Shown in pieces: positions 49,972 to 63,512 of a DNA stretch of 64,000 nucleotides. The stretch is from Bdellovibrionales bacterium (GTDB taxonomy: Bacteria; Bdellovibrionota; Bdellovibrionia; Bdellovibrionales; UBA1609). The stretch is taken from the NCBI GenBank assembly GCA_023301025.1, contig JALZUR010000015.1, forward strand, positions 1 through 64,000, in the 5' to 3' direction. Under the pieces are notes generated by a model. That model was not told where the DNA came from. It saw only the letters and a program-made list of their open reading frames with translations, and did not search any database. The translations under genes and the position numbers were made by a program. Positions within the stretch are counted from its first letter, which is position 1. Every line of letters begins with the position of its first letter.

Positions 49972-52059
49972 ATGAGTCAAAAAACAGAAAAATCGCTAAA
50001 TCTAAAATCAATTATTGATAAGGTAGACAAGGTTAGAGGTGAGAGTGATCTAAGCTGGAGTGGCACGTTTTCAGAATATTTAAATATTGTTAAAACCAAT
50101 CCATCAGTCACAAGAAATGCATATCAAAGACTTTATGATCTTATTATTGGCTACGGAACTTCTGAATACATAGACGTAAAAAAGCATGTTATTCACTATA
50201 ACTTTTTTGATGATGAAGAAAATGGTGGTAAGGATGCAGTTTTTGGACTTGATATACCTTTGATGAAGCTTGTTAATGTCTTAAAATCTGCGGCCTTAGG
50301 TTATGGCACAGAAAAAAGAGTTATCTTACTTCATGGCCCAGTGGGTTCTGCAAAATCTACAATTTGCAGGAGAATAAAAAAAGGGGTTGAAGGCTACTCA
50401 AAAACTGATGAAGGATGTTTATATACGTTTGATTGGATAGATCCAAAAGGAGAGCATGAAGACATCTTTGGTGAAGGAGTTAAAGTTTTTCCAACACCTA
50501 TGAATGAAGAGCCTCTTTTACTTATGCCTCTTGATTACAGAACAGCTTTACAAGATGAAATCAATAAAGGTGCTAAAGGTAATTTTAGAGTTAAAATTCA
50601 AGGTGATATTTGCCCAGCCTCTAGATTTATTTTTAGTAAACTTATGGAAAAGTATGATCGTAATTTAGAAAAAGTTTTAGAGCATATAAAAGTAAAGCGA
50701 CTCGTTTTAAGTGAAGCTGATAGAATTGGGATTGGAACATTTCAGCCAAAAGATGAAAAAAATCAAGACTCAACGGAACTTACAGGTGATATCAACTACA
50801 GAAAAATTGCACAGTATGGCTCAGACTCTGATCCAAGAGCCTTTAACTTTGATGGCGAGTTTAATGTGGCAAACAGAGGAATCATTGAGTTCGTAGAAGT
50901 TTTAAAATTAGATGTGGCTTTTTTGTATGACCTTTTAGGTGCCTCACAGGAACACGTTGTTAAACCTAAAAAGTTTGCTCAAACACATATTGATGAAGTC
51001 ATTATCGGTCACACGAATGAACCTGAGTACAAAAGACTTCAAGATAATGAGTTTATGGAAGCTCTAAGAGATAGAACTGTAAAGATTGATATTCCGTACA
51101 TCACAAAGCTAAAGTATGAAACAAACATCTATAAAAAAGATTTTAACAGTAGAGTTTTAAGAGGTGTAAGTATTGCGCCTCATACGATCGAAGTAGCAGC
51201 TATGTTTGCTGTACTTACGCGGTTAGAAAAGCCAAAAAAAGCAAATCTTACACGCGTGCAGAAGATGAAGCTATACGATGGAAAGAGTCTTCCAAATTAT
51301 ACAGAAGACAATATTAAAGAGTTAAGAAAAGAAACTATAAGAGAAGGCTTAGAAGGGATCAGTCCAAGATATATTCAAGATAAGATTTCAAATGCAATTA
51401 TACAGGCTCAGCAAGTGAACAAAGGTTCAGTTAATCCGTTTATGGTGATTAATGAATTAGAGTCAGGTTTAAAAAATCACTCTTTAATTTCTAATGAAGA
51501 TTTAAAAGCAGATTATAGAGAACTTCTTGGTGTAGTAAAGCAAGAGTATGAAGAGATTATAAAAGGTGAAGTGCAAAGAGCAATTAGTGCGGATCAAGCA
51601 GCTCTCTCTAGGCTTTGTGGAAATTATATAGATAACGTTAAAGCATATACACAAAGAGAAAAAGTTAGAAATCAATTTACTGGTCAAGATGAAAATCCTG
51701 ATGAAAGGTTAATGCGCTCAATAGAAGAAAAAATTGATATTCCAGAATCTAGAAAAGATGATTTTAGACGTGAGATTATGAACTACATTGGTGCACTGTC
51801 GTTAGAAGGTAAAAACTTTGATTACAAAACTAATGAACGTCTTCATAAAGCATTAGAGTTAAAACTTTTTGAAGATCAAAAGGACAGTATCAAATTAACA
51901 TCTCTTGTAACGTCAGCAACTGATAAAGATACGCAAGAGAAGATTAATATAGTTAAGACTAGATTGATTAAAGATTATGGATATGACGATGTGTCAGCAA
52001 CAGACGTTCTTCATTATGTAGCAAGTATATTTGCTCGAGGTGACGTAAAGGATCAATAG
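49972..52059 (+). CDS. prkA: PrkA-family serine protein kinase
   Basis: The 695-residue protein has the PrkA AAA domain with [11 protein letters not shown] (Walker A near 122), a long conserved central part ([29 protein letters not shown]) and the C-terminal kinase-like domain. In E. coli YeaG and in Bacillus PrkA act in stress and starvation or sporulation control. GGAGG lies 10 bases before the ATG. It leads an operon with yeaH and spoVR with gaps of 3 and 1 bases, the same trio known as yeaG-yeaH-ycgB. Confidence 0.95.
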
Positions 52060-52062
52060 ATC

Positions 52063-53148
52063 ATGAGTATTCTTGAAAATCATAAACGTTTTAAAGATAT
52101 AGTTAAGGGTAGAATCAGGGAAGATTTTAAAAAATTTGTCACACAAGATGAGATGATTGGTAAGTCTGAAAATGACTATGTTAAAATTCCTGTAAGCCGG
52201 ATTAAGCTTCCAAAATTTATTTATGGAGCTAAGAATCAAGGTGGTGTCGGTCAGGGTGAAGGCCAAGAAGGAAAAGAAGTTCCTTCTAAAGGTCAAAAAG
52301 CTGGCAATAGCCCTGGAGAACATCAAGTAGAAGTTGAAGTAGAAATTGATGAGCTTGCAGAAATTTTAGGAAAAGAACTTGAACTTCCTAGAATTGAACC
52401 AAAAGGAAAAAAGTTAGTATCTTCTGAGGACAAACGCTACACAAATATTTCTGATGTGGGGCCTTCAGGTCTAAGGCATTTTAAAAAAACGTATAAGGAA
52501 GCACTCAAAAGATCGATTGCCTCAGGTACGTACAATGCAAAAGATCCTATGATTGTTCCTATTAAAAAAGACTTTCGCTACAAAGCTTCAAAGCCAGTTT
52601 CAAAGCCAACAGCAAATGCGGTTGTGATTTATATAATGGATGTTTCTGGTTCTATGGGTGAGGAACAAAAAAAAATTGTTCGTATGGAAAGTTTTTGGAT
52701 AAATACGTGGTTAAAATTTAATTATAAAGGATTAGACACCCGATTTATAATTCACGATGCTTCTGCAAAGGAAGTAGATGAAGAAACTTTTTTTAGCACA
52801 AGTGAATCTGGTGGAACTTTAATATCTTCTGCTTATAAAAAAGCATTAGAGATAATTGATAAAGATTATCCTGTTAATGAGTGGAATATTTATATGTTTC
52901 ACTTTAGTGATGGGGATAACTGGAGCAGTGACGACACAAATCTTTGTAAAGATATTATAAAAAATGAATTTTTAAAAAAGATAAATCTTTTTGGCTATGG
53001 GCAAGTTGAAAGTAAGTACGGAAGCGGACAATTTATAAAAGATCTAAAAAAAGATTTTGAAGAGGAAGATGCAGTAGTTTGTAGCCCTATAAAAAGTAAA
53101 GATGAAATTGTTAGATCAATTAAAGATTTTTTAGGTAAAGGGAGATAA
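52063..53148 (+). CDS. yeaH: YeaH/YhbH family protein (DUF444)
   Basis: The 361-residue protein has the DUF444 layout: N-terminal NDYVKIPVSRIKLPKF, an acidic Gly/Lys-rich linker (GQGEGQEGKEVPSKG), and a von Willebrand A-like domain with the MIDAS motif DVSGSMG near residue 192, then SESGGTLISSAYKKA and FSDGDNW. It is the standard partner of PrkA (YeaG) and SpoVR (YcgB), thought to bridge them. Tight spacing on both sides confirms the operon. Confidence 0.93.
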   Translation: MSILENHKRFKDIVKGRIREDFKKFVTQDEMIGKSENDYVKIPVSRIKLPKFIYGAKNQGGVGQGEGQEGKEVPSKGQKAGNSPGEHQVEVEVEIDELAEILGKELELPRIEPKGKKLVSSEDKRYTNISDVGPSGLRHFKKTYKEALKRSIASGTYNAKDPMIVPIKKDFRYKASKPVSKPTANAVVIYIMDVSGSMGEEQKKIVRMESFWINTWLKFNYKGLDTRFIIHDASAKEVDEETFFSTSESGGTLISSAYKKALEIIDKDYPVNEWNIYMFHFSDGDNWSSDDTNLCKDIIKNEFLKKINLFGYGQVESKYGSGQFIKDLKKDFEEEDAVVCSPIKSKDEIVRSIKDFLGKGR

Positions 53149-53149
53149 A

Positions 53150-54649
53150 ATGCTAAAACTGCCGCAAGAGTTAGTTGCTCAGCAAAAAAAGATTTCTAAA
53201 CTTGCTGCAAGTTTAGAGTTAGATTTTTATGACACAGTATTTGAAATGGTTACCTATAAAGAGATGAATCAAATTGCAGCCTTAGGTGGTTTTCCAGTGA
53301 GATATCCACATTGGAGATTTGGGATGGAGTATGATTCTATCTCTAAAAGTTACGAGTATGGTCTTTCTAAAATATATGAGCTAGTTATAAATAATGATCC
53401 TTGTTACGCTTATCTTTTAGAAGGAAATTCTTTTGTAGATCATAAATTAGTTATTGCTCATGTATATGGGCATTGCGATTTCTTTAAAAATAATAAATGG
53501 TTTTCAAAAACAAATAGAAAGATGATGGATCAAATGGCAAATCATGCCACACGTGTAAGGCGCTATATAGACTTACACGGTATTGAAAGAGTTGAGCGAT
53601 TTATTGACTGCTGTTTATCTTTAGAGAACTTAATAGACAGGCACAGTCCTTATGTTGATGAGCAAATTCAGATAGTCAGAAGTGAATCAGAAGAAAGTAA
53701 TGATAATGATAGAAAGAAAAATACAGATAAAGACTCTTCACCAAAAAGATATTTAGACTCTTATATAAAAAGTCTTGAAGTAAAAAATCCTGAGATTGAG
53801 AAGCCTATTGAGCTAACCAGAAAGACTCAGATTAACCCTGAAAAAGATGTACTTAAGTTTTTAATTCAAAATGCTCCATTAGAAGATTGGGAGCTTGATA
53901 TTATAAGTATAATTAGAAAAGAAGCGTATTACTTTGCTCCACAAGGTATGACTAAAATTATGAATGAGGGCTGGGCCTCTTATTGGCATGCTAAAATGAT
54001 GACTGAGCATATTTGTAATGACAACGAGATTATTGATTTCAGTGACACTCACAGTGGGACTATGGCTATGAAGCCTGATGGTTTTAACCCTTATAAAATT
54101 GGTATTGAGCTTATGCGAGATATTGAAATTAGGTGGAACAAGGGACAATTCGGGAAAGAGTGGAATGAGTGTGATAATTTAGATGCAAAAAAAAATTGGG
54201 ACAGAAAGCTTGATAAAGGTCGAGAAAAAATATTTGAAGTTAGGCGTGATTACAATGATGTGATGTTTATTGATCATTTTTTAACAGAAGAGTTTTGTGT
54301 TAAAAATAAATTTTTTGTATATCAGTTTAATAAAAAGACAAAAAAATTTGAAATTAATACTAGGGATTTTAAAGCTATTAAAAACAAACTTTTATTTCAG
54401 CTTACAAATTTTGGTCAACCAATTATACAAGTTGTAGATCATAACTTTGAAAATAGAGGAGAACTTTTGCTCACTCATCTATTTGAGGGTGTTGAACTTC
54501 AACCTGACTATATGAAGCAGACTATGACCCGTCTTTTTATGCTTTGGAAAAGACCTGTATGTTTAGCCACAGTCTTAGATAAAAGTCCTGCTCTTGTAAG
54601 TTACGATGGCACTGACTTTGTTCATAAAAATTTAGATCAAGCTGCTTGA
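53150..54649 (+). CDS. ycgB: SpoVR family protein
   Basis: The 499-residue protein has the SpoVR signature blocks FPVRYPHWRFGMEYD, YAYLLEGNSFVDHKLVIAHVYGH, NEGWASYWHAKMM and NPYKIGIELMRDIE. It is the third member of the PrkA-YeaH-SpoVR set. In B. subtilis SpoVR contributes to cortex formation; in other bacteria the set responds to starvation. GGGAG ataaa precedes the ATG. The stop codon is inside the terminator stem that ends the operon. Confidence 0.94.
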   Translation: MLKLPQELVAQQKKISKLAASLELDFYDTVFEMVTYKEMNQIAALGGFPVRYPHWRFGMEYDSISKSYEYGLSKIYELVINNDPCYAYLLEGNSFVDHKLVIAHVYGHCDFFKNNKWFSKTNRKMMDQMANHATRVRRYIDLHGIERVERFIDCCLSLENLIDRHSPYVDEQIQIVRSESEESNDNDRKKNTDKDSSPKRYLDSYIKSLEVKNPEIEKPIELTRKTQINPEKDVLKFLIQNAPLEDWELDIISIIRKEAYYFAPQGMTKIMNEGWASYWHAKMMTEHICNDNEIIDFSDTHSGTMAMKPDGFNPYKIGIELMRDIEIRWNKGQFGKEWNECDNLDAKKNWDRKLDKGREKIFEVRRDYNDVMFIDHFLTEEFCVKNKFFVYQFNKKTKKFEINTRDFKAIKNKLLFQLTNFGQPIIQVVDHNFENRGELLLTHLFEGVELQPDYMKQTMTRLFMLWKRPVCLATVLDKSPALVSYDGTDFVHKNLDQAA

Positions 54650-54842: not shown

Positions 54843-57800
54843 ATGCGCTTTGAAAAATTATTTAAAATACTCTTAATAGCTGTTCTTTCTTTATCCACAG
54901 CAGCTTGTGTTATTGAAGATGTATCTGATGGTGCATCTTCTGGTTCTGATGATGGTGGAGCCGGTGGTGAAGATGATGGTAACTTTGTTTACGATGGTTG
55001 CATTAACGGACAAGGTGTTGGTACTCAGAGTATTCAAATAAACTATTTTTTCCCACCTGAAGCCAGTCGTGTTCGTATCAGAAGAAATGGTATTGAAATT
55101 GCTCAATTCTCTTCAGACAATCTTTTAACAAGTCATATTGATGATAATGGTCTTCGTGAAGGTGCTACTTACTTATATACGTGTGAGGCTTTTGTTGATG
55201 GTCTTTGGTCTGAAGGAACTGTTAGTTTACAACTTTCAACGCTAGCAGAAAATGCACCTTCTAATTTCAACGGTATTGATACAGCTACAGCACTTGACCC
55301 AAATACAGTTCAAGTTACATGGGTACCAACAATTTCTGATACTCCAGTTCCAGCTTTTTATTACGCTATATACTCTAATGTTGGAGACACCGTAGATTTT
55401 ACAGCTACTCCTAAAGGGACTGTTCTACAAGGAAGTCCTGCAGAATTTGATGTTACAGGTTTAGGTGATGAGTTAAGTTATGCCTTTGGTGTTAGAGCAT
55501 GTAGTGAAGGTGATGTTTGTGAGACTAATACAGTTCAAGAGTTAGTTTTTACACCTGACAGTGGTGCACCTACAACTCCTGGAGCAACACAAGCGGAACT
55601 TTTAAATGGTCGAATTGCAGTAACAGCACCTTGGACAGAAACTGACGGTGGATTACAAAGACGTTTTGTATTTGTACGAACTGGACCAGTTGGCGGAACT
55701 AACCTTGGCGATTACAGACTTGAAAGAACCTACTCTTTAACTGGAGAAGAACTTTTTTCACCTCCTACTGATTTAGAGATTCTTAATTTGGTGGAAGGCA
55801 ACACCTATCACATTATTGTTCAAGATGAAGATCCAAGTGGTCAAAGATCAACTGTCAGTCAATTTCAAACTATAGTTGTTGATGATATCACCCCTCCTGC
55901 TTTTGGTGGAATTACGAACATCACTCAAAGTACTCCAGCAGACACTACACTAAATGTAAGTTGGACAGCTATTGATACTGAAGCTGTCGACCCTATAAGT
56001 GGTGGTACATTTTATTCAATCTTAGCTTTAACGGATGCAACACCTATACTCGGGAATCCTTGTACTGCAGGTGATGAACTTGCAAGACTTAATGTTGCCG
56101 ACTTTACAGCAGGTGCTACAGCTAATCATGTACTAACAGGTTTGGCAGAAAGATCTTATTACAAGGTTTGTATCAAAGCCATAGATACTGTTGGTAACAT
56201 TTCTGTTAATGACAATTCTTTACAGGATAACACTTTAGATATCACTGCACCTGAGTTCTTTGGTTTAGAAACTATTACTTATGAAAACCAAGCAGCAACT
56301 TTAAGCTTATCTTGGAACCAAAGTACAACTCCAGATATTGAAGATTATAGAATTACGTTGTGGGTAAACCAAGCCACTCCTCCTGCTACGCCAGCAGTAC
56401 TTTTTAGAAGTCATGCTGATTTTGCTACAGGTACATCTATTGATGGTGGCGAATTTGTAATCAATGATAACGATGAAGTCTTTGCACTTGTTGAAGGTTG
56501 TGATGGAACAGAACCTCCTTTTGGAAATCAAAACTGTTCATCTATTGGAATCATCAGATCTGTAATTGTTCCTGATGTTACTCCACCACCAAATTTTGCA
56601 GGTATACGTGGACCTACTGAACTATCAAGTACAGTTGAAGGTTCTGTTGATGTTTTATGGTCGATGCCACCTGATTGGTCTGATTATCGTGGGTTTAGAG
56701 TATACAATGTTAACCCAGCAACGAATGAGCTTACATTACTCAGAACTTGTCCGTGCGTTGATTACGGCTGCTCAGATGAGATCACTCAGTGTACTGTTAA
56801 TGGACTAGATCCTTATAGAACTTATAGATTTCATGTTAGAGCTTATGATGACGAGAACAATGAAACTTTATATCTTCAACCAAATGTTAGTTTTGCAGAT
56901 AGAAGAGTTATTGATACAACTGCTCCTGCATTTGCTTCTAACTTAGCTGTTGGTGCATCACCTGATTTTGAATTGTCTTGGAGTGCTGCCGTAGACAATC
57001 AGTTTCCTACTGAGCCTGGGGCAGAAATTACGTATAGAATCTATCAAAACAATGGACCTTTTGATTTTACAGACCCTACACGACCTGATGGAAACTTAAA
57101 AACCGAGACTTTAGCTACTAACTTTATTGATAGTAATTTTGCAGAAGGTGAGACATTTTTCTATACAGTCTGTGCAGTGGACTCATCTGATAATGTAAGT
57201 TGTGATCAACTTACAAGATTCTTTACTGTTCCAGATGTTACAGATCCTGAAATCATAAATTTGACTACAGATAAAACTGTTAAGACAAGAGTCTGGGAAC
57301 TTAGTTGGACTATGAGTGACAACATCTCAGCCTTTGATGATCTAGCTGTTGAAATCAGAAGAAGGGTTTCAACTACAGGAGATCTTGCAACTTTAACTGA
57401 TCCTGTAATTTACACAGGTAATGGTGCTGATGTTTTAGTTTCAGGAAATGATTCCTCAACTTCTGTTGTGGCTTCACTTGATCCTTTATTCGGAGAACAG
57501 AATTTAAATCGTGATATCAATTACCTTGTTACTGTTAGGGATGAAGCTGGTAATACATCTAGTGCAAATATAGGTGTTGTAAGTAATAACTCTGTAACTA
57601 TAACAGATGTTAGTCCTGAGGTAGGGCCTATAGCTGGTGGACAGCTAGTAACAGTTTTTGGTACAGGGTTTTTAACGGCACTTGAAAGTGGTACAGGTTC
57701 AGATACAACTATTTTAATTTCAGGAAGAGCGTGTGTAGACGTTAATATCTTAAGTGATCGTTCTATGTATTGCACAACACCTGCAGTTACAGTTCCTGGT

Positions 57801-59618
57801 CAGGTTGAAGTTAGAGTGAGAGCACAAATTAACAATCCTGCAGATCCAAGTAATGCTTTATTTTCTGAAAATGCAACAAGTTCAGAGTATGCTTACAGCA
57901 CTACACCTGTTCTTTGCGATGATCCAGGAAGTTGGAATCCAAACTATGCAGCTGGTACGGGAACAGAAGTTGATCCTTATATTATTTGTGATGTCACACA
58001 TCTTAACCAAGCCAGAACCGATGCCCCTGGTGGAAACTTCTACATGCTAGGTCAAAGTATTGATTTAGCTGCAGAAACAAACTTTGCACCTCTTGGCGAT
58101 ACAACAAATGAATTTTCTGGTGGTTTTGATGGTGATGGAAAGCTTATTCTAAATTGGGCTTACACAGGGTCACAATCAAATATAGGCTTTTTTGGTCATG
58201 TAAATAATGACTTTACAATTAGGGATTTAGGTCTAGTAAATGTAAATATTGATGGAGCGCAGTCTGTTGGTGGACTGATTGGTTTGGCTGAAGGTGGGAC
58301 AAATAGATCAGGATCAATCAGTGGATCATTTGTAACAGGTGCAATTATTGGAGATGCTTTTGTTGGTGGACTTGTTGGTCGAAAGCAGGCAGATCATATA
58401 AACTTTAATGTTGTAAATTCTTACTTTATTGGAACAGTTGAGGCGGTAACTTCAACTGGTTATGCTGGTGGAATTTTTGGACTTACTGGAACAGCACTTG
58501 GTGGTAATTTTAACTCTGTATTTTCTGAAGGGACTATTACAGGAACTTCAAGAGTTGGGGGACTTTTTGGTAACCTTGGAGATAACAAACAGTTAATCAA
58601 CTCATTCTCACGTGCAACAGTTATTGCAACGGATACAAACTCTGGAGGCTTAGCCGCAGAAGTCGGTCCAGGTGCTTTGATTGAAAATTCATTTACTGAA
58701 AGTGGATCAGTAACTGGTGTAGACTCATCTGGTGGTTTAGTTGGAAGCTTAGAGGGAACTTTAAGGGATTCAGTTTCTGATATATCAGTTATATCGACTG
58801 GTAGACGAGCTGGTGGAGCAGTAGGTGTCGCAATTGATGCAACAATTGATACAGTGTCATCTCTTGCCGATCATACGTTTGATAGAACGTCTGGAGGTTT
58901 AGTTGGAGAACTTTTAAATTCTGATCTAATAAATTCTTTTTCTAGCGGAGCTATCACTTCAACTGCTGCTGAAGTTGGTGGATTGATTGGTAAAGTTACT
59001 GCTGGGGCAAACGAATCCTTACAGATTACAGATGCGTACTCTGATGCAAGCGTATCTTCAGGTTTAGGAAACTCTATTGGTGGTTTAATTGGTATCATTG
59101 AAGCACAAGGCAATAGTACTGTTGATATGAACGCTGTTTTTGCAACAGGTAACATTGGTGATGACTTTGCTTCTGCTACACAAAATTATGGCGGACTTTT
59201 TGGTGTTATTGATACACAGAGTGGATCAAATGTTAATGTACAAGACTGTTACTCTTCAGGACAGGTTTTGGCTGGATCAAATGTTGGTGGTTTGATGGGT
59301 GGATTTTTGCTGAACCTTGGAAATATAAGTCTTACTAGGTGCTATTCAGCAGCAGCTTTACTTGGAGGATCGACAAATAGAGGGGGTTTATTTGGAAACT
59401 CTGATACTCACATTACTGTAACTGATGTTCTATGGGATAGAGATGCGACCAATCAAGATTTTGCAGCTGGTTCTGGTATTTTTGGTGGATCGCCGATCAG
59501 TTATACAACACCTGAAATGCAAGATTTTTCAAATTCAGTTTATACAAATTTTGATTTTGTAACTATTTGGAGAGAACCAAATGGTGTGGGTTACCCTGAG
59601 CTTAGGTTTGCAAACTAA
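54843..59618 (+). CDS. Giant surface lipoprotein with FN3, IPT and GLUG repeats
   Basis: The 1591-residue protein has a lipoprotein signal (STAAC, Cys22) and an acidic Gly/Asp-rich linker. About six fibronectin type III-like units follow (residues about 70-900), each with a Trp in a core strand (VTWVPT, VSWTAI, LSWNQS, VLWSMP, LSWSAA, LSWTMS), then an IPT/TIG domain (VSPEVGPIAGGQLVTVFGTGF, near 920-1000) and about 500 residues of GLUG-type repeats with VGGLIG, GGLVGR and GGLFGN turns. Such proteins are exported adhesins or cell-surface fibres. GTGAGGT precedes the ATG. The motAB locus follows in the same direction. Confidence 0.85.
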   Translation: MRFEKLFKILLIAVLSLSTAACVIEDVSDGASSGSDDGGAGGEDDGNFVYDGCINGQGVGTQSIQINYFFPPEASRVRIRRNGIEIAQFSSDNLLTSHIDDNGLREGATYLYTCEAFVDGLWSEGTVSLQLSTLAENAPSNFNGIDTATALDPNTVQVTWVPTISDTPVPAFYYAIYSNVGDTVDFTATPKGTVLQGSPAEFDVTGLGDELSYAFGVRACSEGDVCETNTVQELVFTPDSGAPTTPGATQAELLNGRIAVTAPWTETDGGLQRRFVFVRTGPVGGTNLGDYRLERTYSLTGEELFSPPTDLEILNLVEGNTYHIIVQDEDPSGQRSTVSQFQTIVVDDITPPAFGGITNITQSTPADTTLNVSWTAIDTEAVDPISGGTFYSILALTDATPILGNPCTAGDELARLNVADFTAGATANHVLTGLAERSYYKVCIKAIDTVGNISVNDNSLQDNTLDITAPEFFGLETITYENQAATLSLSWNQSTTPDIEDYRITLWVNQATPPATPAVLFRSHADFATGTSIDGGEFVINDNDEVFALVEGCDGTEPPFGNQNCSSIGIIRSVIVPDVTPPPNFAGIRGPTELSSTVEGSVDVLWSMPPDWSDYRGFRVYNVNPATNELTLLRTCPCVDYGCSDEITQCTVNGLDPYRTYRFHVRAYDDENNETLYLQPNVSFADRRVIDTTAPAFASNLAVGASPDFELSWSAAVDNQFPTEPGAEITYRIYQNNGPFDFTDPTRPDGNLKTETLATNFIDSNFAEGETFFYTVCAVDSSDNVSCDQLTRFFTVPDVTDPEIINLTTDKTVKTRVWELSWTMSDNISAFDDLAVEIRRRVSTTGDLATLTDPVIYTGNGADVLVSGNDSSTSVVASLDPLFGEQNLNRDINYLVTVRDEAGNTSSANIGVVSNNSVTITDVSPEVGPIAGGQLVTVFGTGFLTALESGTGSDTTILISGRACVDVNILSDRSMYCTTPAVTVPGQVEVRVRAQINNPADPSNALFSENATSSEYAYSTTPVLCDDPGSWNPNYAAGTGTEVDPYIICDVTHLNQARTDAPGGNFYMLGQSIDLAAETNFAPLGDTTNEFSGGFDGDGKLILNWAYTGSQSNIGFFGHVNNDFTIRDLGLVNVNIDGAQSVGGLIGLAEGGTNRSGSISGSFVTGAIIGDAFVGGLVGRKQADHINFNVVNSYFIGTVEAVTSTGYAGGIFGLTGTALGGNFNSVFSEGTITGTSRVGGLFGNLGDNKQLINSFSRATVIATDTNSGGLAAEVGPGALIENSFTESGSVTGVDSSGGLVGSLEGTLRDSVSDISVISTGRRAGGAVGVAIDATIDTVSSLADHTFDRTSGGLVGELLNSDLINSFSSGAITSTAAEVGGLIGKVTAGANESLQITDAYSDASVSSGLGNSIGGLIGIIEAQGNSTVDMNAVFATGNIGDDFASATQNYGGLFGVIDTQSGSNVNVQDCYSSGQVLAGSNVGGLMGGFLLNLGNISLTRCYSAAALLGGSTNRGGLFGNSDTHITVTDVLWDRDATNQDFAAGSGIFGGSPISYTTPEMQDFSNSVYTNFDFVTIWREPNGVGYPELRFAN

Positions 59619-60310: not shown

Positions 60311-61099
60311 ATGAGAACTCTATCAGCCATTATTGGTGCACTATTAGCCGGAGCCATTATAACTCTAACATTCACATCTTCTGGTGTGGATATAAAGTTT
60401 TTCATAAACATTGTTGGACTTTGTATTGTTATTGGTGGAAGTCTTTCTGCAATATTTTTATCTTACTCTTTAAAAGATGTGATGAGAGTTTTTTCTGTTA
60501 TTTCTAGTATTTTTTTAAGAAAGAGTCAGAGTATGAATATGTTAGGTGAAAATCTAATGAAGTTTTCAGAAATATGCTCTAAAAAAGGTGTTCCTTCAGG
60601 TACAAAAGGAAAAATTCACTTTTTCTTAGATGATTGTCTTGTACTGATAAACGACGGTTATTCAGATAAAGAGATGAGAGAAATGCTAGAGCAAAGAATC
60701 ATGTCTACTTATGATGTTGAAAAGTATCAAATGGGTCTAGTCAGATCTATGTCAAAATACCCTCCAGCTTTTGGAATGATTGGAACAGTTGTTGGTCTTA
60801 TTGCATTGATGGCAAATATGGGTGGAGCTGATGTTGATATGGCAGAAATTGGTGGATATATGGCCATCGCCTTAACGACAACACTTTATGGTTTAATGAT
60901 TGCAAACTTTATCTTTAAGCCTATTTCTGACAACTTAGAGTTAGGCAGCAAAGAAAATCTAAAGACAAGACAACTCATTTTAGAAGCAGCTCTACTTATT
61001 AAAAATGGTGCATCCCTTTTAGTTATTCAAGATACAATAAACTCACTACTTCCTCCAAGAGAAAGAGTTAGTTATATAGGAGCTCAAAGTGCAGCGTAA
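60311..61099 (+). CDS. motA: MotA-type stator proton/sodium channel subunit
   Basis: The 262-residue protein has four membrane helices: N-terminal pair with INIVGLCIVIGGSLSAIFLS and SLKDVMRVF, and a later pair with PPAFGMIGTVVGLIALM and MAIALTTTLYGLMIANFIF. The TTLYG and GTVVGL motifs are those of MotA/PomA rather than ExbB/TolQ. With MotB it makes an ion-driven stator. It lies between the PEGA lipoprotein and motB, whose start overlaps its end by 11 bases. No flagellar genes are nearby in the window. Confidence 0.92.
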   Translation: MRTLSAIIGALLAGAIITLTFTSSGVDIKFFINIVGLCIVIGGSLSAIFLSYSLKDVMRVFSVISSIFLRKSQSMNMLGENLMKFSEICSKKGVPSGTKGKIHFFLDDCLVLINDGYSDKEMREMLEQRIMSTYDVEKYQMGLVRSMSKYPPAFGMIGTVVGLIALMANMGGADVDMAEIGGYMAIALTTTLYGLMIANFIFKPISDNLELGSKENLKTRQLILEAALLIKNGASLLVIQDTINSLLPPRERVSYIGAQSAA

Positions 61100-61835
61100 T
61101 TCAGGACGATTAATGATCCCTGATGACGAAGAAGGGGGAGATGACAGTGGTGAATGGATCATGTCCTATGCCGATACTGTTACTCTTCTTTTATGTTTCT
61201 TTATTATATTTTTTGCTGAATTTAAAAAGAAATCAGAAAAAGATCTTCTTTTAGATTTAAGTAAAAATGTTAATCAAAGTGCTGATGAGTCAGACTCTGG
61301 AAGAAAGAAAGCAGAAACACTTTCTAAAATTGAGTCAGAGGTAAGATCTGAATTAGCACAGTTTGAAGTAAAAAAGTTAAAACTAGGTATTGTAAGGCGT
61401 AGAAAAGAGATTTTAGTTAGACTTTATGAAAGAGATTTTTTTCATATTGGAAGCTATTTGCTTAAAGATAATGGTAAAAATGTACTTAAAGTGGTTTCAA
61501 ATCTTTTAAGACCCCATCAAGATAAGATTATTTTAAGGGTTGAAGGGCACTCCGATAGTCTTGCAGTAAATCCGTTGTCTCCATATAAGACAAACTTAAA
61601 TTTAAGTTCTTTACGAGCATCTCAAGCTGCAAATGTTTTAATAGACAATGGTCTATATGAGAACAAGATTAGAGTACTAGGCTTTGGCTCAGCAAATAGA
61701 ATTGTAAATGATAGGCTTCCCGCAAGTGAGGGTGGCAAATACCTACCAAAAATGGGTCTCAAAAACAGACGAATTGAGATCCGAATTCAGACATTAGACG
61801 AGAACGCCGACAAATTCGTTAATGTTGGAGAATAG
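61089..61835 (+). CDS. motB: MotB-type stator subunit with OmpA domain
   Basis: The 248-residue protein has a cytoplasmic N-terminus, a transmembrane helix starting with the ion-binding Asp in MSYADTVTLLLCFFIIFF (Asp29), a helical linker and a C-terminal OmpA/MotB peptidoglycan-binding domain (VEGHSDSLAVN, NLNLSSLRASQAANVL, FGSANRIVN, NRRIEIRI). GTG 61089 is supported by GGAG 6 bases upstream and overlaps motA by 11 bases. It would anchor the stator to peptidoglycan. The periplasmic linker is shorter than in classical flagellar MotB. Confidence 0.92.
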   Translation: MQRNSGRLMIPDDEEGGDDSGEWIMSYADTVTLLLCFFIIFFAEFKKKSEKDLLLDLSKNVNQSADESDSGRKKAETLSKIESEVRSELAQFEVKKLKLGIVRRRKEILVRLYERDFFHIGSYLLKDNGKNVLKVVSNLLRPHQDKIILRVEGHSDSLAVNPLSPYKTNLNLSSLRASQAANVLIDNGLYENKIRVLGFGSANRIVNDRLPASEGGKYLPKMGLKNRRIEIRIQTLDENADKFVNVGE

Positions 61836-61847
61836 TGGGGGTAAAAA

Positions 61848-63512
61848 TTGAAATCACTTAAGTACTTAGCTTTATTAGGTTTGTTTGTATCGGTGCAAGC
61901 ATTTGGTTTAAAGGCAGATATAAATACTGTTAAAGCTTATCATAACGATGAGATCAATCAGCTTTTAACGGACTATACACTAGAAGACAGTTTAAACATT
62001 CGTGTGGAACTAAAAAGAAAAGACACTAAGCTAACAGAGCAAGAGATTGTAAGTATTCCTGGTTTGTACCAAAAAACTGGAGAATTTTCTGAAGTTGATT
62101 TAGGAAAAGTTTTAAATTTATACGACAGAAAAATTGTTTTGATCCAAAAAAGACAAGTTTCTAACGAAGAGATGGATTTAGTAAAATCATCTTTAAAAGA
62201 CAGGCTCTACCTTCCAGAAGATGTTCAATACACTGTCTTAGACGACACTCCAAAGATACAAGAAGCTGTATCTAATATTTCAAATGATTTCTTTTTTGGA
62301 GCTTATGTAACTTTGATCAAAAAAGGTCAATTTTTATGGATTCTTATTTTTTCAATTGGTTTCATAATTGCTCTTTATGTACTTGCTAAAGTTTGGAAAG
62401 GAAAATCACAAGGTGCAGATGCTGGTGGTTCTTCAGAACTTTCAATGTCTGGTGGTGGATTAGAAGCATCTAATGATAAGATTTCTGATAAGAATGACGA
62501 TAATACACATGGTGCACAAGGTGGATTTACAGAGTCTGATTTAGAAACATTCAATTTTAAGTCACTTTGCTCAAATTTAACAGAGGCATATGCACAATCT
62601 CCTGGATCTACATCTCAAGTTTTATGGCAACAGATTCCTGATTTTAAATCTCAAATTCAATTTTATGAAATAATTAAGATACAAAAAGATATATCTGATA
62701 ATGTATATCAAATTTTAGATAGCATTTTTAGTTTTAAATCTAGATCAAATTCTGCTAGCAATCTTAGATCGCAAGGTTTTAGTAAGCACACGCTTTCTAA
62801 TATCTCTGTTGAATTAGCAAAAATTAAATTTTCTGATGTGCATAATGAACATGAAGAAGTTTTATCTGAAATATATCCAAACTGTGCAGATCATAAGTCT
62901 GAGCTCTATGAAAAAGGTTTGGAGACACATTATCTTGTTTTGTATAAAATTTTTAAAGATGATTTTATGAACTATCTATCTACAAGTAAGAATTCAAATA
63001 TTATGGATAAAGTTAATGATCTTTTAACTTTTGACCCATCATCTGATCATCCTGAGTCTTCAAAATATAAAGCTTTTGTTAGTTTCTTAAAAGAGAGTAA
63101 CTTTGGTGTTAAAGATAAGAGTCAAAAAACTGTAAATAATAAAGTTGTTCAGATGCTTTATAATCTTTCTGAAGATGATCTTTCTAATGTAAAAGCATTA
63201 AAAGAAAGTGATGAACTTAAATCACTAGTACCAAGACTGTCTTGGGTAAACAGTGAAGATTCAAATAGACTTAAATCATTTTTGACTAATCTTGATGGAC
63301 ATCAACTTAAACTTTTTCTTGATGAAGAGAGCACTTACAGCAGCGCGATTTCTGAATTAGATGATAGAACAAAGTTTAGATTGACTGAAAAAGCCTCAAA
63401 GGGTGATCAAGAAAAAATTGATTGGACGTCTTTAAGAGAAAAAATAAAACTGTTTTACAGTTATGAAAGCGACAAAGGTAACGAGCAACATTATGAGAAA
63501 AAAGCCAGTTAG
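61848..63512 (+). CDS. Membrane protein with FliF-like periplasmic/TM part and FliG-like C-terminus
   Basis: The 554-residue protein has a signal-type N-terminus (1-19), a periplasmic domain of about 140 residues, a membrane helix at about 162-182, an acidic linker and a cytoplasmic domain to the end. The periplasmic part (NIRVELKRK, KIVLIQKRQVSNEEMDLVKS) follows the order of the last ring-building domain of FliF/SctJ, and the end (DGHQLKLFLDEESTYSSAI, SELDDRTKFRLTEKA) recalls FliG repeats. It directly follows motB. TTG start with GGGGG upstream. Homology is by eye; without a search it is not proven. Confidence 0.5.
   Translation: MKSLKYLALLGLFVSVQAFGLKADINTVKAYHNDEINQLLTDYTLEDSLNIRVELKRKDTKLTEQEIVSIPGLYQKTGEFSEVDLGKVLNLYDRKIVLIQKRQVSNEEMDLVKSSLKDRLYLPEDVQYTVLDDTPKIQEAVSNISNDFFFGAYVTLIKKGQFLWILIFSIGFIIALYVLAKVWKGKSQGADAGGSSELSMSGGGLEASNDKISDKNDDNTHGAQGGFTESDLETFNFKSLCSNLTEAYAQSPGSTSQVLWQQIPDFKSQIQFYEIIKIQKDISDNVYQILDSIFSFKSRSNSASNLRSQGFSKHTLSNISVELAKIKFSDVHNEHEEVLSEIYPNCADHKSELYEKGLETHYLVLYKIFKDDFMNYLSTSKNSNIMDKVNDLLTFDPSSDHPESSKYKAFVSFLKESNFGVKDKSQKTVNNKVVQMLYNLSEDDLSNVKALKESDELKSLVPRLSWVNSEDSNRLKSFLTNLDGHQLKLFLDEESTYSSAISELDDRTKFRLTEKASKGDQEKIDWTSLREKIKLFYSYESDKGNEQHYEKKAS

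Follow-up and report, generated by a model that had tools for sequence, protein, structure and literature searches.

What is the protein that is encoded directly behind a flagellar-type motAB pair in this genome of the order Bdellovibrionales, and what could it do together with these stators? The sequence in question belongs to contig 15 of a genome of 2.03 Mb (97.5% complete), whereby the first 64,000 nucleotides of the contig, referred to here as the window, were analyzed. The gene starts 12 bases past the motB stop codon (Table 1), and the original prediction had read its product as a possible FliF-FliG fusion. The architecture claimed for it, namely a signal peptide, a periplasmic part, one membrane helix, and a long cytoplasmic part, agrees with the open reading frame and with the AF2 model. 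The latter shows a signal helix, the succession H23-42/E49-57/E92-101/H106-119/E127-132 within a periplasmic domain of about 110 residues, a membrane helix from residue 146 on, and helices only thereafter, at a poor mean pLDDT of 57. Pfam, NCBIfam, and PADLOC yielded nothing significant within the 554 amino acids, and BLAST-type searches with the protein returned no relatives from genomes, plasmids, or genome contigs, nor did a scan of genome contigs with the MotA of the window.

Table 1. Features of the window and of two further rotor loci (positions refer to the window unless a contig or locus is named).
Feature	Position	Strand	Basis or remark
Predicted FliF(RBM3)-TM-FliG fusion (“rotor”) gene	61848..63512	+	554 aa, TTG start; divergent class I member
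Signal peptide region, residues 1-21	61848..61910	+	Sequence; helix 2-19 in model
Periplasmic RBM3-like domain, residues 23-132, alpha-beta-beta-alpha-beta	61914..62243	+	Model, Foldseek FliF RBM3 matches, FliF profile comparison
Single transmembrane helix, about residues 155-180, FliF TM2 equivalent	62310..62387	+	Hydropathy; model helix 146-192
Cytoplasmic helical-repeat region, FliG equivalent, residues 237-542	62556..63473	+	Models; low-confidence in window protein, high-confidence in relatives
FliG_C stator-facing segment, about residues 483-525	63294..63422	+	Family alignment to FliG; Arg/Glu at E. coli FliG R281/D288 positions
Giant surface lipoprotein, 1591 aa, FN3 and TIG domains	54843..59618	+	Pfam; Ig/FN3/PKD/NHL giants adjoin most relatives
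Small lipoprotein, 222 aa	59641..60309	+	TPR/PEGA-like lipoproteins in same slot of relatives
MotA, 262 aa, flagellar-type, large cytoplasmic domain	60311..61099	+	Pfam MotA_ExbB E = 1.3e-19; NCBIfam PomA/MotA; clusters with class I MotAs
MotB, 248 aa, plug/TM with SYAD aspartate, OmpA peptidoglycan-binding domain	61089..61835	+	Pfam OmpA E = 1.1e-14, MotB_plug E = 7.7e-9
Small outer-membrane beta-barrel-like exported protein, about 197 aa	63463..64000, to contig position 64056	+	Overlaps fusion gene by 50 bases; conserved slot
Second rotor gene, class II	C37:64554-66164, genome of the window; with lipoprotein and barrel: L241:11776-14805		Adjoined by lipoprotein, barrel, and giant 1099- and 2304-aa lipoproteins (FG-GAP, FN3 repeats)
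Class III block	L243:9421-16191, genome G004, near 2.91-2.92 Mb		MotAB pair, 302-aa lipoprotein, further on 577-aa fusion above Pfam FliG_N/M/C cut-offs

A Protein Family Reached Via the motA Context

Relatives were reached only via the context of motA, whereby the window MotA was compared to 141 whole genomes of the same order and the open reading frame past motB was inspected. At the loci with the closest MotAs, this slot is occupied by a protein of 550-610 amino acids with a signal peptide, about 130 periplasmic residues, one transmembrane segment near residues 155-165, and a helical cytoplasmic part. The signal peptides of these relatives end with A-S, A-Q, or A-N, followed by a conserved RVxEVE/PRVxELE motif. 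Profiles of these proteins, designated class I, were built from 10 (A1) and 30 relatives (A2 and A3). The class I profile matches 35 of the 141 genomes of the order; in the phylum as a whole, 73 of 369 genomes are matched, which belong to 50 of 182 genera. Two sister classes were found. Class II (profile A4) shows the arrangement lipoprotein - fusion - barrel with MotAB present or absent and has strong matches in about 30 genomes of the order; class III (profile A5) occurs in Bdellovibrio-like genomes in the order MotA - MotB ... lipoprotein - barrel - membrane protein - fusion. Between the profiles of classes I and III the alignment spans 507 columns (E = 4.9e-9), between those of classes II and III 536 columns (E = 1.4e-22). 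The fusion family is phylum-wide and comprises at least three classes.

The window protein is the most divergent member of class I, with 12-18% identity to the others. Its E-values in the genome and phylum scans are inflated since its sequence was part of the respective profile; a class I profile built without it gives E = 0.054, and the window protein is then the best match among the tested open reading frames of its own genome. In an hhalign comparison to its nearest relatives it reached a score of 40.0 over residues 14-126, compared to a maximum of 29.1 for shuffled controls (n = 60). The strongest argument for its class I membership is the position within the gene block (see below), and a chance finding is unlikely, as the same gene holds this slot at 26-27 of the 28 loci, which stem from several families. 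At the C-terminus, nearly all class I fusions carry -AA (or -VA, -SA), which may serve as a degradation signal or be a conserved contact; the last residues of the window protein are -KKAS.

The Cytoplasmic Part and FliG

Because the AF2 model of the window protein is poor, the fold was taken from the class I relative L040, for which the model has a mean pLDDT of 82.4, with values mostly above 90 in the cytoplasmic part. A Foldseek search of the PDB with this model returned FliG structures at all of the ranks 1-13, including full-length and cryo-EM FliG, with probabilities of 0.94-1.00 over 220-353 columns, and the comparison to FliG_C of the MotAB-bound structure 8ucs_H gave an rmsd of 1.4 Å and a TM-score of 0.78 (Foldseek). 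The low-confidence model of the window protein matched only 8umx among the FliG structures, with a Foldseek probability of 0.09. Profile searches point in the same direction as the L040 model: Pfam FliG_C is matched by 8 of 10 class I members (best E 3e-5), and the best PDB matches of the class I profile are FliG structures (1lkv, E = 0.0031). Two class II members exceed the FliG_C cut-off of Pfam, and class III exceeds the cut-offs of FliG_C (40.2 bits), FliG_M (32 bits), and FliG_N (25.5 bits), with E = 3.8e-26 against FliG crystal structures.

The original prediction had placed FliG repeats in the last 80 residues of the window protein, based on the strings DGHQLKLFLD and SELDDRTKFR. The likeness to FliG stands. 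Both strings occur within residues 483-512, in the FliG_C segment, and the class I columns of this stretch pair with DTRDLALALK...NMSKRAAALL of T. maritima FliG in an ungapped alignment. The extent has to be revised, since the L040 model matches full-length FliG and thus the whole cytoplasmic region, not just its last 80 residues, is the FliG part. The residue at the position of E. coli FliG R281 is basic in all 30 aligned class I proteins and that at D288 is acidic in 25 of them, whereby the window protein has Arg and Glu, respectively; the equivalents of FliG K264 and D289 are not conserved in class I (n = 30 aligned). In class III the FliM-binding EHPQ motif is replaced, which is consistent with the absence of FliM/FliN from the window genome.

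Many genomes of the order also encode small stand-alone FliG_C proteins (about 145-280 amino acids) beside flagellar FliG, e.g., at G003:C1:328766, G132:C1:181076, and G136:C2:73648.

The Periplasmic Part and FliF

For the periplasmic part, the order of the FliF ring-building domain had been claimed. The L040 model matches FliF RBM3/S-ring structures with Foldseek probabilities of up to 0.99, and the weak model of the window protein likewise matches FliF RBM3 (8ftf, 6sd1, 7d84, and others; probability up to 0.89). An earlier hhalign comparison to a FliF set from one order was marginal, whereas a diverse FliF alignment, which included 12 FliFs from plasmids of several phyla, gave a clear score: the class I periplasmic part covers FliF columns 241-419, i.e., the whole RBM3, over 123 columns with a score of 35.3, while the maximum among 150 column-shuffled controls was 19.7. 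For class III, the alignment to FliF extends over 243 columns (E = 4.6e-6) and runs from RBM3 across TM2 to the C-terminal tail. The region of TM1, RBM1, and RBM2 (Pfam YscJ_FliF, PF01514) had no match in the window genome, and the fusion has a signal peptide instead.

Judged by these profile matches, class III is unambiguously a FliF-FliG fusion. Since class I aligns with class III, which itself matches FliF and FliG in order, class I is homologous from end to end to a FliF(RBM3-TM2)-FliG fusion, and the order of the domains equals the order of the flagellar genes fliF and fliG. We regard it as very likely that the family with the window protein constitutes a natural fusion of this type. The comparison of structures and profiles to FliF and FliG had been set beforehand as the check, and both were matched by the L040 model and the class III profiles. 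Accordingly, the claimed fusion and the claimed domain order are borne out mostly at the level of the family; the window protein by itself is too divergent to prove the reading and supports it weakly.

The Gene Block and Its Stators

The class I block has the order small TPR lipoprotein - MotA - MotB - fusion - small beta-barrel, and a giant Ig/FN3/NHL lipoprotein is encoded close by. A script check of 28 class I loci found motB as the next gene upstream of the fusion in 26, motA before it in 27, and the lipoprotein in 25 cases, as well as the small barrel as the next gene downstream in 26 and a large lipoprotein nearby in 25; the stretch covered by the script missed the FN3 giant of the window, which does lie upstream. 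The barrel-slot protein of one relative matches OMP_b-brl (E = 0.0019). Since the lipoprotein, the beta-barrel, and the giant adhesin-like lipoprotein belong to the unit, the term “minimal” motor, under which it had been introduced, does not hold. Just upstream of the giant lipoprotein (49972-54649), consecutive genes encode a PrkA-like kinase, a YeaH-like protein, and SpoVR, whereby SpoVR was assigned with Pfam and the other two were assigned by eye. Two flagellin-like genes (L183:264-2348) are located a few genes from a class I block in a single genome of the phylum, which is probably a coincidence.

The stator genes show the features of flagellar stators, namely a MotA with four transmembrane helices and a large cytoplasmic domain and a MotB with a plug, an ion-binding Asp, and an OmpA domain (Pfam/NCBIfam). 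The MotA of L040 matches solved stators with E = 1.6e-35, and the conserved prolines P173 and P222 are present in all MotAs that were aligned. In E. coli, MotA R90 and E98 make contact with FliG; according to the alignments, which are uncertain in this loop and give the residue mapping as a lead only, class I has not retained these two residues. In the MotA tree, all class I MotAs, including that of the window, fall on one side of a branch with a support of 93/96. The class I MotA is a separate lineage that is co-inherited with the fusion.

A Genome Without the Tested Flagellar Genes

Searches of the 97.5% complete window genome for YscJ_FliF, FliG_C, FliMN_C, and FlhA returned no match, and the same searches succeed in flagellate controls. 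In spite of these missing flagellar genes, the genome contains two genes for rotors and two MotAB pairs of the flagellar type. The second pair lies about 23 kb from the class II rotor gene on the same contig (C37). With motA and motB directly upstream of the fusion, the claim of an own MotAB outside of a flagellar locus is confirmed for the window. G138 (86% complete), a further carrier of the block, does not belong to the genomes with a FliF match either. Most other class I carriers are flagellate, i.e., they have FliF and FliG. Since most other carriers are flagellate and the window genome is not, the block neither needs nor substitutes for a flagellum.

Proposed Machine and Alternative Explanations

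Starting from the domain homology, the gene block, the co-inheritance with an own MotA, and the absence of the tested flagellar genes, all of which were computed here, we infer how ring formation, stator contact, rotation, the link to the outer membrane, and a role in surface motility might come together. The signal peptide would export the fusion in place of TM1, RBM1, and RBM2 of FliF. Many copies would most likely assemble into a ring in the inner membrane, with the RBM3 ring in the periplasm and the FliG ring in the cytoplasm, whereby the ring of FliF itself has about 33-35 subunits; ring assembly is suggested by engineered FliF-FliG fusions, which form rings, and by a Salmonella FliF-FliG fusion mutant, which is motile and swims (PMC6079021). 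Dedicated, peptidoglycan-anchored MotA5MotB2 stators could then act on the charged helix of FliG_C and drive the ring by the ion gradient. In this system, which lacks a rod, a hook, a type III export gate, and a FliM/FliN switch, torque or stroke would leave via the periplasmic ring, and the force might be passed on from there to the TPR lipoprotein, the small outer-membrane barrel, and finally the giant Ig/FN3/NHL surface lipoprotein. The device would thereby set an adhesin in motion or operate it, for instance during gliding or prey contact. We consider the full reading, i.e., a fusion ring that is driven by a dedicated MotAB and works an outer-membrane adhesin, to be reasonably probable. 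That the fusion serves gliding or prey contact in particular is a tentative suggestion.

The same parts could also act without a rotating ring. The FliG-like part might dock on MotAB and the RBM3-like part pass strokes to the outer membrane, comparable to Tol-Pal or TonB, e.g., for envelope constriction or the pulling of lipoproteins. Such a force transducer would fit the TPR lipoprotein, the outer-membrane barrel, and the giant lipoprotein of the block as well as the altered stator-contact residues of MotA, and related 5:2 motors (Tol, Ton, Agl) do perform envelope work (PMC13104615). However, RBM3 is a ring-forming domain and FliG a rotor protein, and the stators have kept the large flagellar-type cytoplasmic domain of MotA and the plug and OmpA domain of MotB, unlike TolQR and ExbBD, so that we consider this explanation unlikely. 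Less likely still is an auxiliary module of the flagellar motor, whereby the extra MotAB and the fusion would regulate or slow down the flagellum or provide it with alternative stators. FliF and FliG are also present in most carriers, and a study of B. bacteriovorus from 2024 regards each of the three MotAB pairs as a stator of the flagellum (PMC11323537). Yet the window genome, which has no FliF, FliG, FliM/N, or FlhA, keeps two rotor genes and two MotAB pairs, the block lies outside of the flagellar gene clusters in the loci inspected, and class I MotA forms its own lineage. Outside of the window genome an accessory flagellar role is possible because most carriers are flagellate as well.

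Two further explanations were considered. The fusion might be a sensor or scaffold unrelated to FliF and FliG, in which a periplasmic domain of the OsmC type and a solenoid of the MgtE_N type resemble them by coincidence. OsmC structures do occur among the Foldseek matches (probability up to 0.87), and some members show a weak Pfam MgtE_N match, but FliG dominates the matches with probabilities of up to 1.00, FliF RBM3 reaches 0.99, class III is significant for FliG_N/M/C and for FliF RBM3-TM2-tail in order, and the neighbor is MotAB. We therefore hold this reading to be very improbable, and at the family level it is largely refuted. The block could finally be an anti-phage system of the Zorya type, in which MotAB-like ZorAB act with effectors. 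The window MotB indeed weakly matches ZorB profiles (E = 4.5e-12, 44 bits); PADLOC, however, gave no match for MotA or the fusion, both MotA and MotB score higher against flagellar models, and the block is conserved together with envelope proteins, with no ZorC- or ZorD-like gene seen, which leaves this option with hardly any probability. As identities of the proteins, the OsmC fold, the MgtE_N solenoid, and Zorya were thus judged unlikely, the FliG/FliF matches and the composition of the block being against them.

Relation to Known Systems

The rotor-stator unit shares with the flagellar motor (FliF MS-ring and FliG with MotAB) the arrangement of RBM3-TM2 followed by FliG, the fliF-fliG order, and a partly kept charged helix of FliG_C, and the MotAB pair shares the large cytoplasmic domain of MotA and the plug and OmpA domain of MotB. 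It differs in being one polypeptide with a signal peptide, from which RBM1, RBM2, and TM1 are missing, in its occurrence in a genome without FliF, FliG, FliM/FliN, and the FlhA export gate, and in its ties to a lipoprotein, a barrel, and a giant surface lipoprotein. The FliF-FliG fusions of Salmonella and Vibrio have FliF in frame with FliG as well, but they contain full FliF and are flagellar, whereas those described here are natural, shortened, and located outside of flagellar loci (PMC6079021; PMC11481574). Searches of the open literature returned FliF-FliG fusions only as mutants or constructs, and a description of the block was not found there.

The class III block of genome G004, which we take from the locus-tag rank to be that of B. 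bacteriovorus HD100 around bd3021/bd3020, probably holds the MotAB2 pair Bd3021/Bd3020. If G004 is HD100, a MotAB pair whose role was investigated as that of a flagellar stator adjoins a FliF-FliG fusion, and at least one B. bacteriovorus MotAB pair counted as a flagellar stator may serve another machine. In the passages of the corresponding study considered here, bd3021/bd3020 (motA2/motB2) are presented only as a flagellar stator, and a FliF-FliG fusion adjoining MotAB2 is not mentioned there (PMC11323537).

The gliding machineries Agl-Glt of Myxococcus and GldLM/T9SS of Bacteroidota are similar by analogy, in that an ion-driven motor is coupled to outer-membrane or surface proteins; their stators, AglRQS or GldLM, work without a known FliF/FliG part, in contrast to the true MotAB and fusion found here. 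According to a review from 2026, the gliding motor and the adhesins of Bdellovibrio are an open problem (PMC13104615), and the block is a candidate for a Bdellovibrio-type gliding motor. It is conceivable, if somewhat doubtful, that the blocks, which are widespread in the phylum in three classes, including Bdellovibrio itself, represent an unrecognized class of envelope-spanning rotary machines. These would have arisen from the flagellar rotor when half of FliF was fused to FliG and export, rod, and switch were given up; with their own MotAB they would drive outer-membrane adhesins and be the missing motor for gliding or prey contact of these predators. Homology ties the parts to the flagellar motor, and it is the load moved by the block that decides whether the machine forms a class of its own. 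If the proposed reading is true, the rotor-stator pair of the flagellum would have found a second use as an envelope motor that works without a flagellum, which would amount to a natural experiment on which part of the flagellar motor suffices to turn ion flow into work. The window genome also contains ExbB/TolQ-type motor genes in L242 (C37:20000-36000) and at C15:84271-85130, which possibly belong to AglRQS/Glt-like clusters and would be a rival candidate for gliding.
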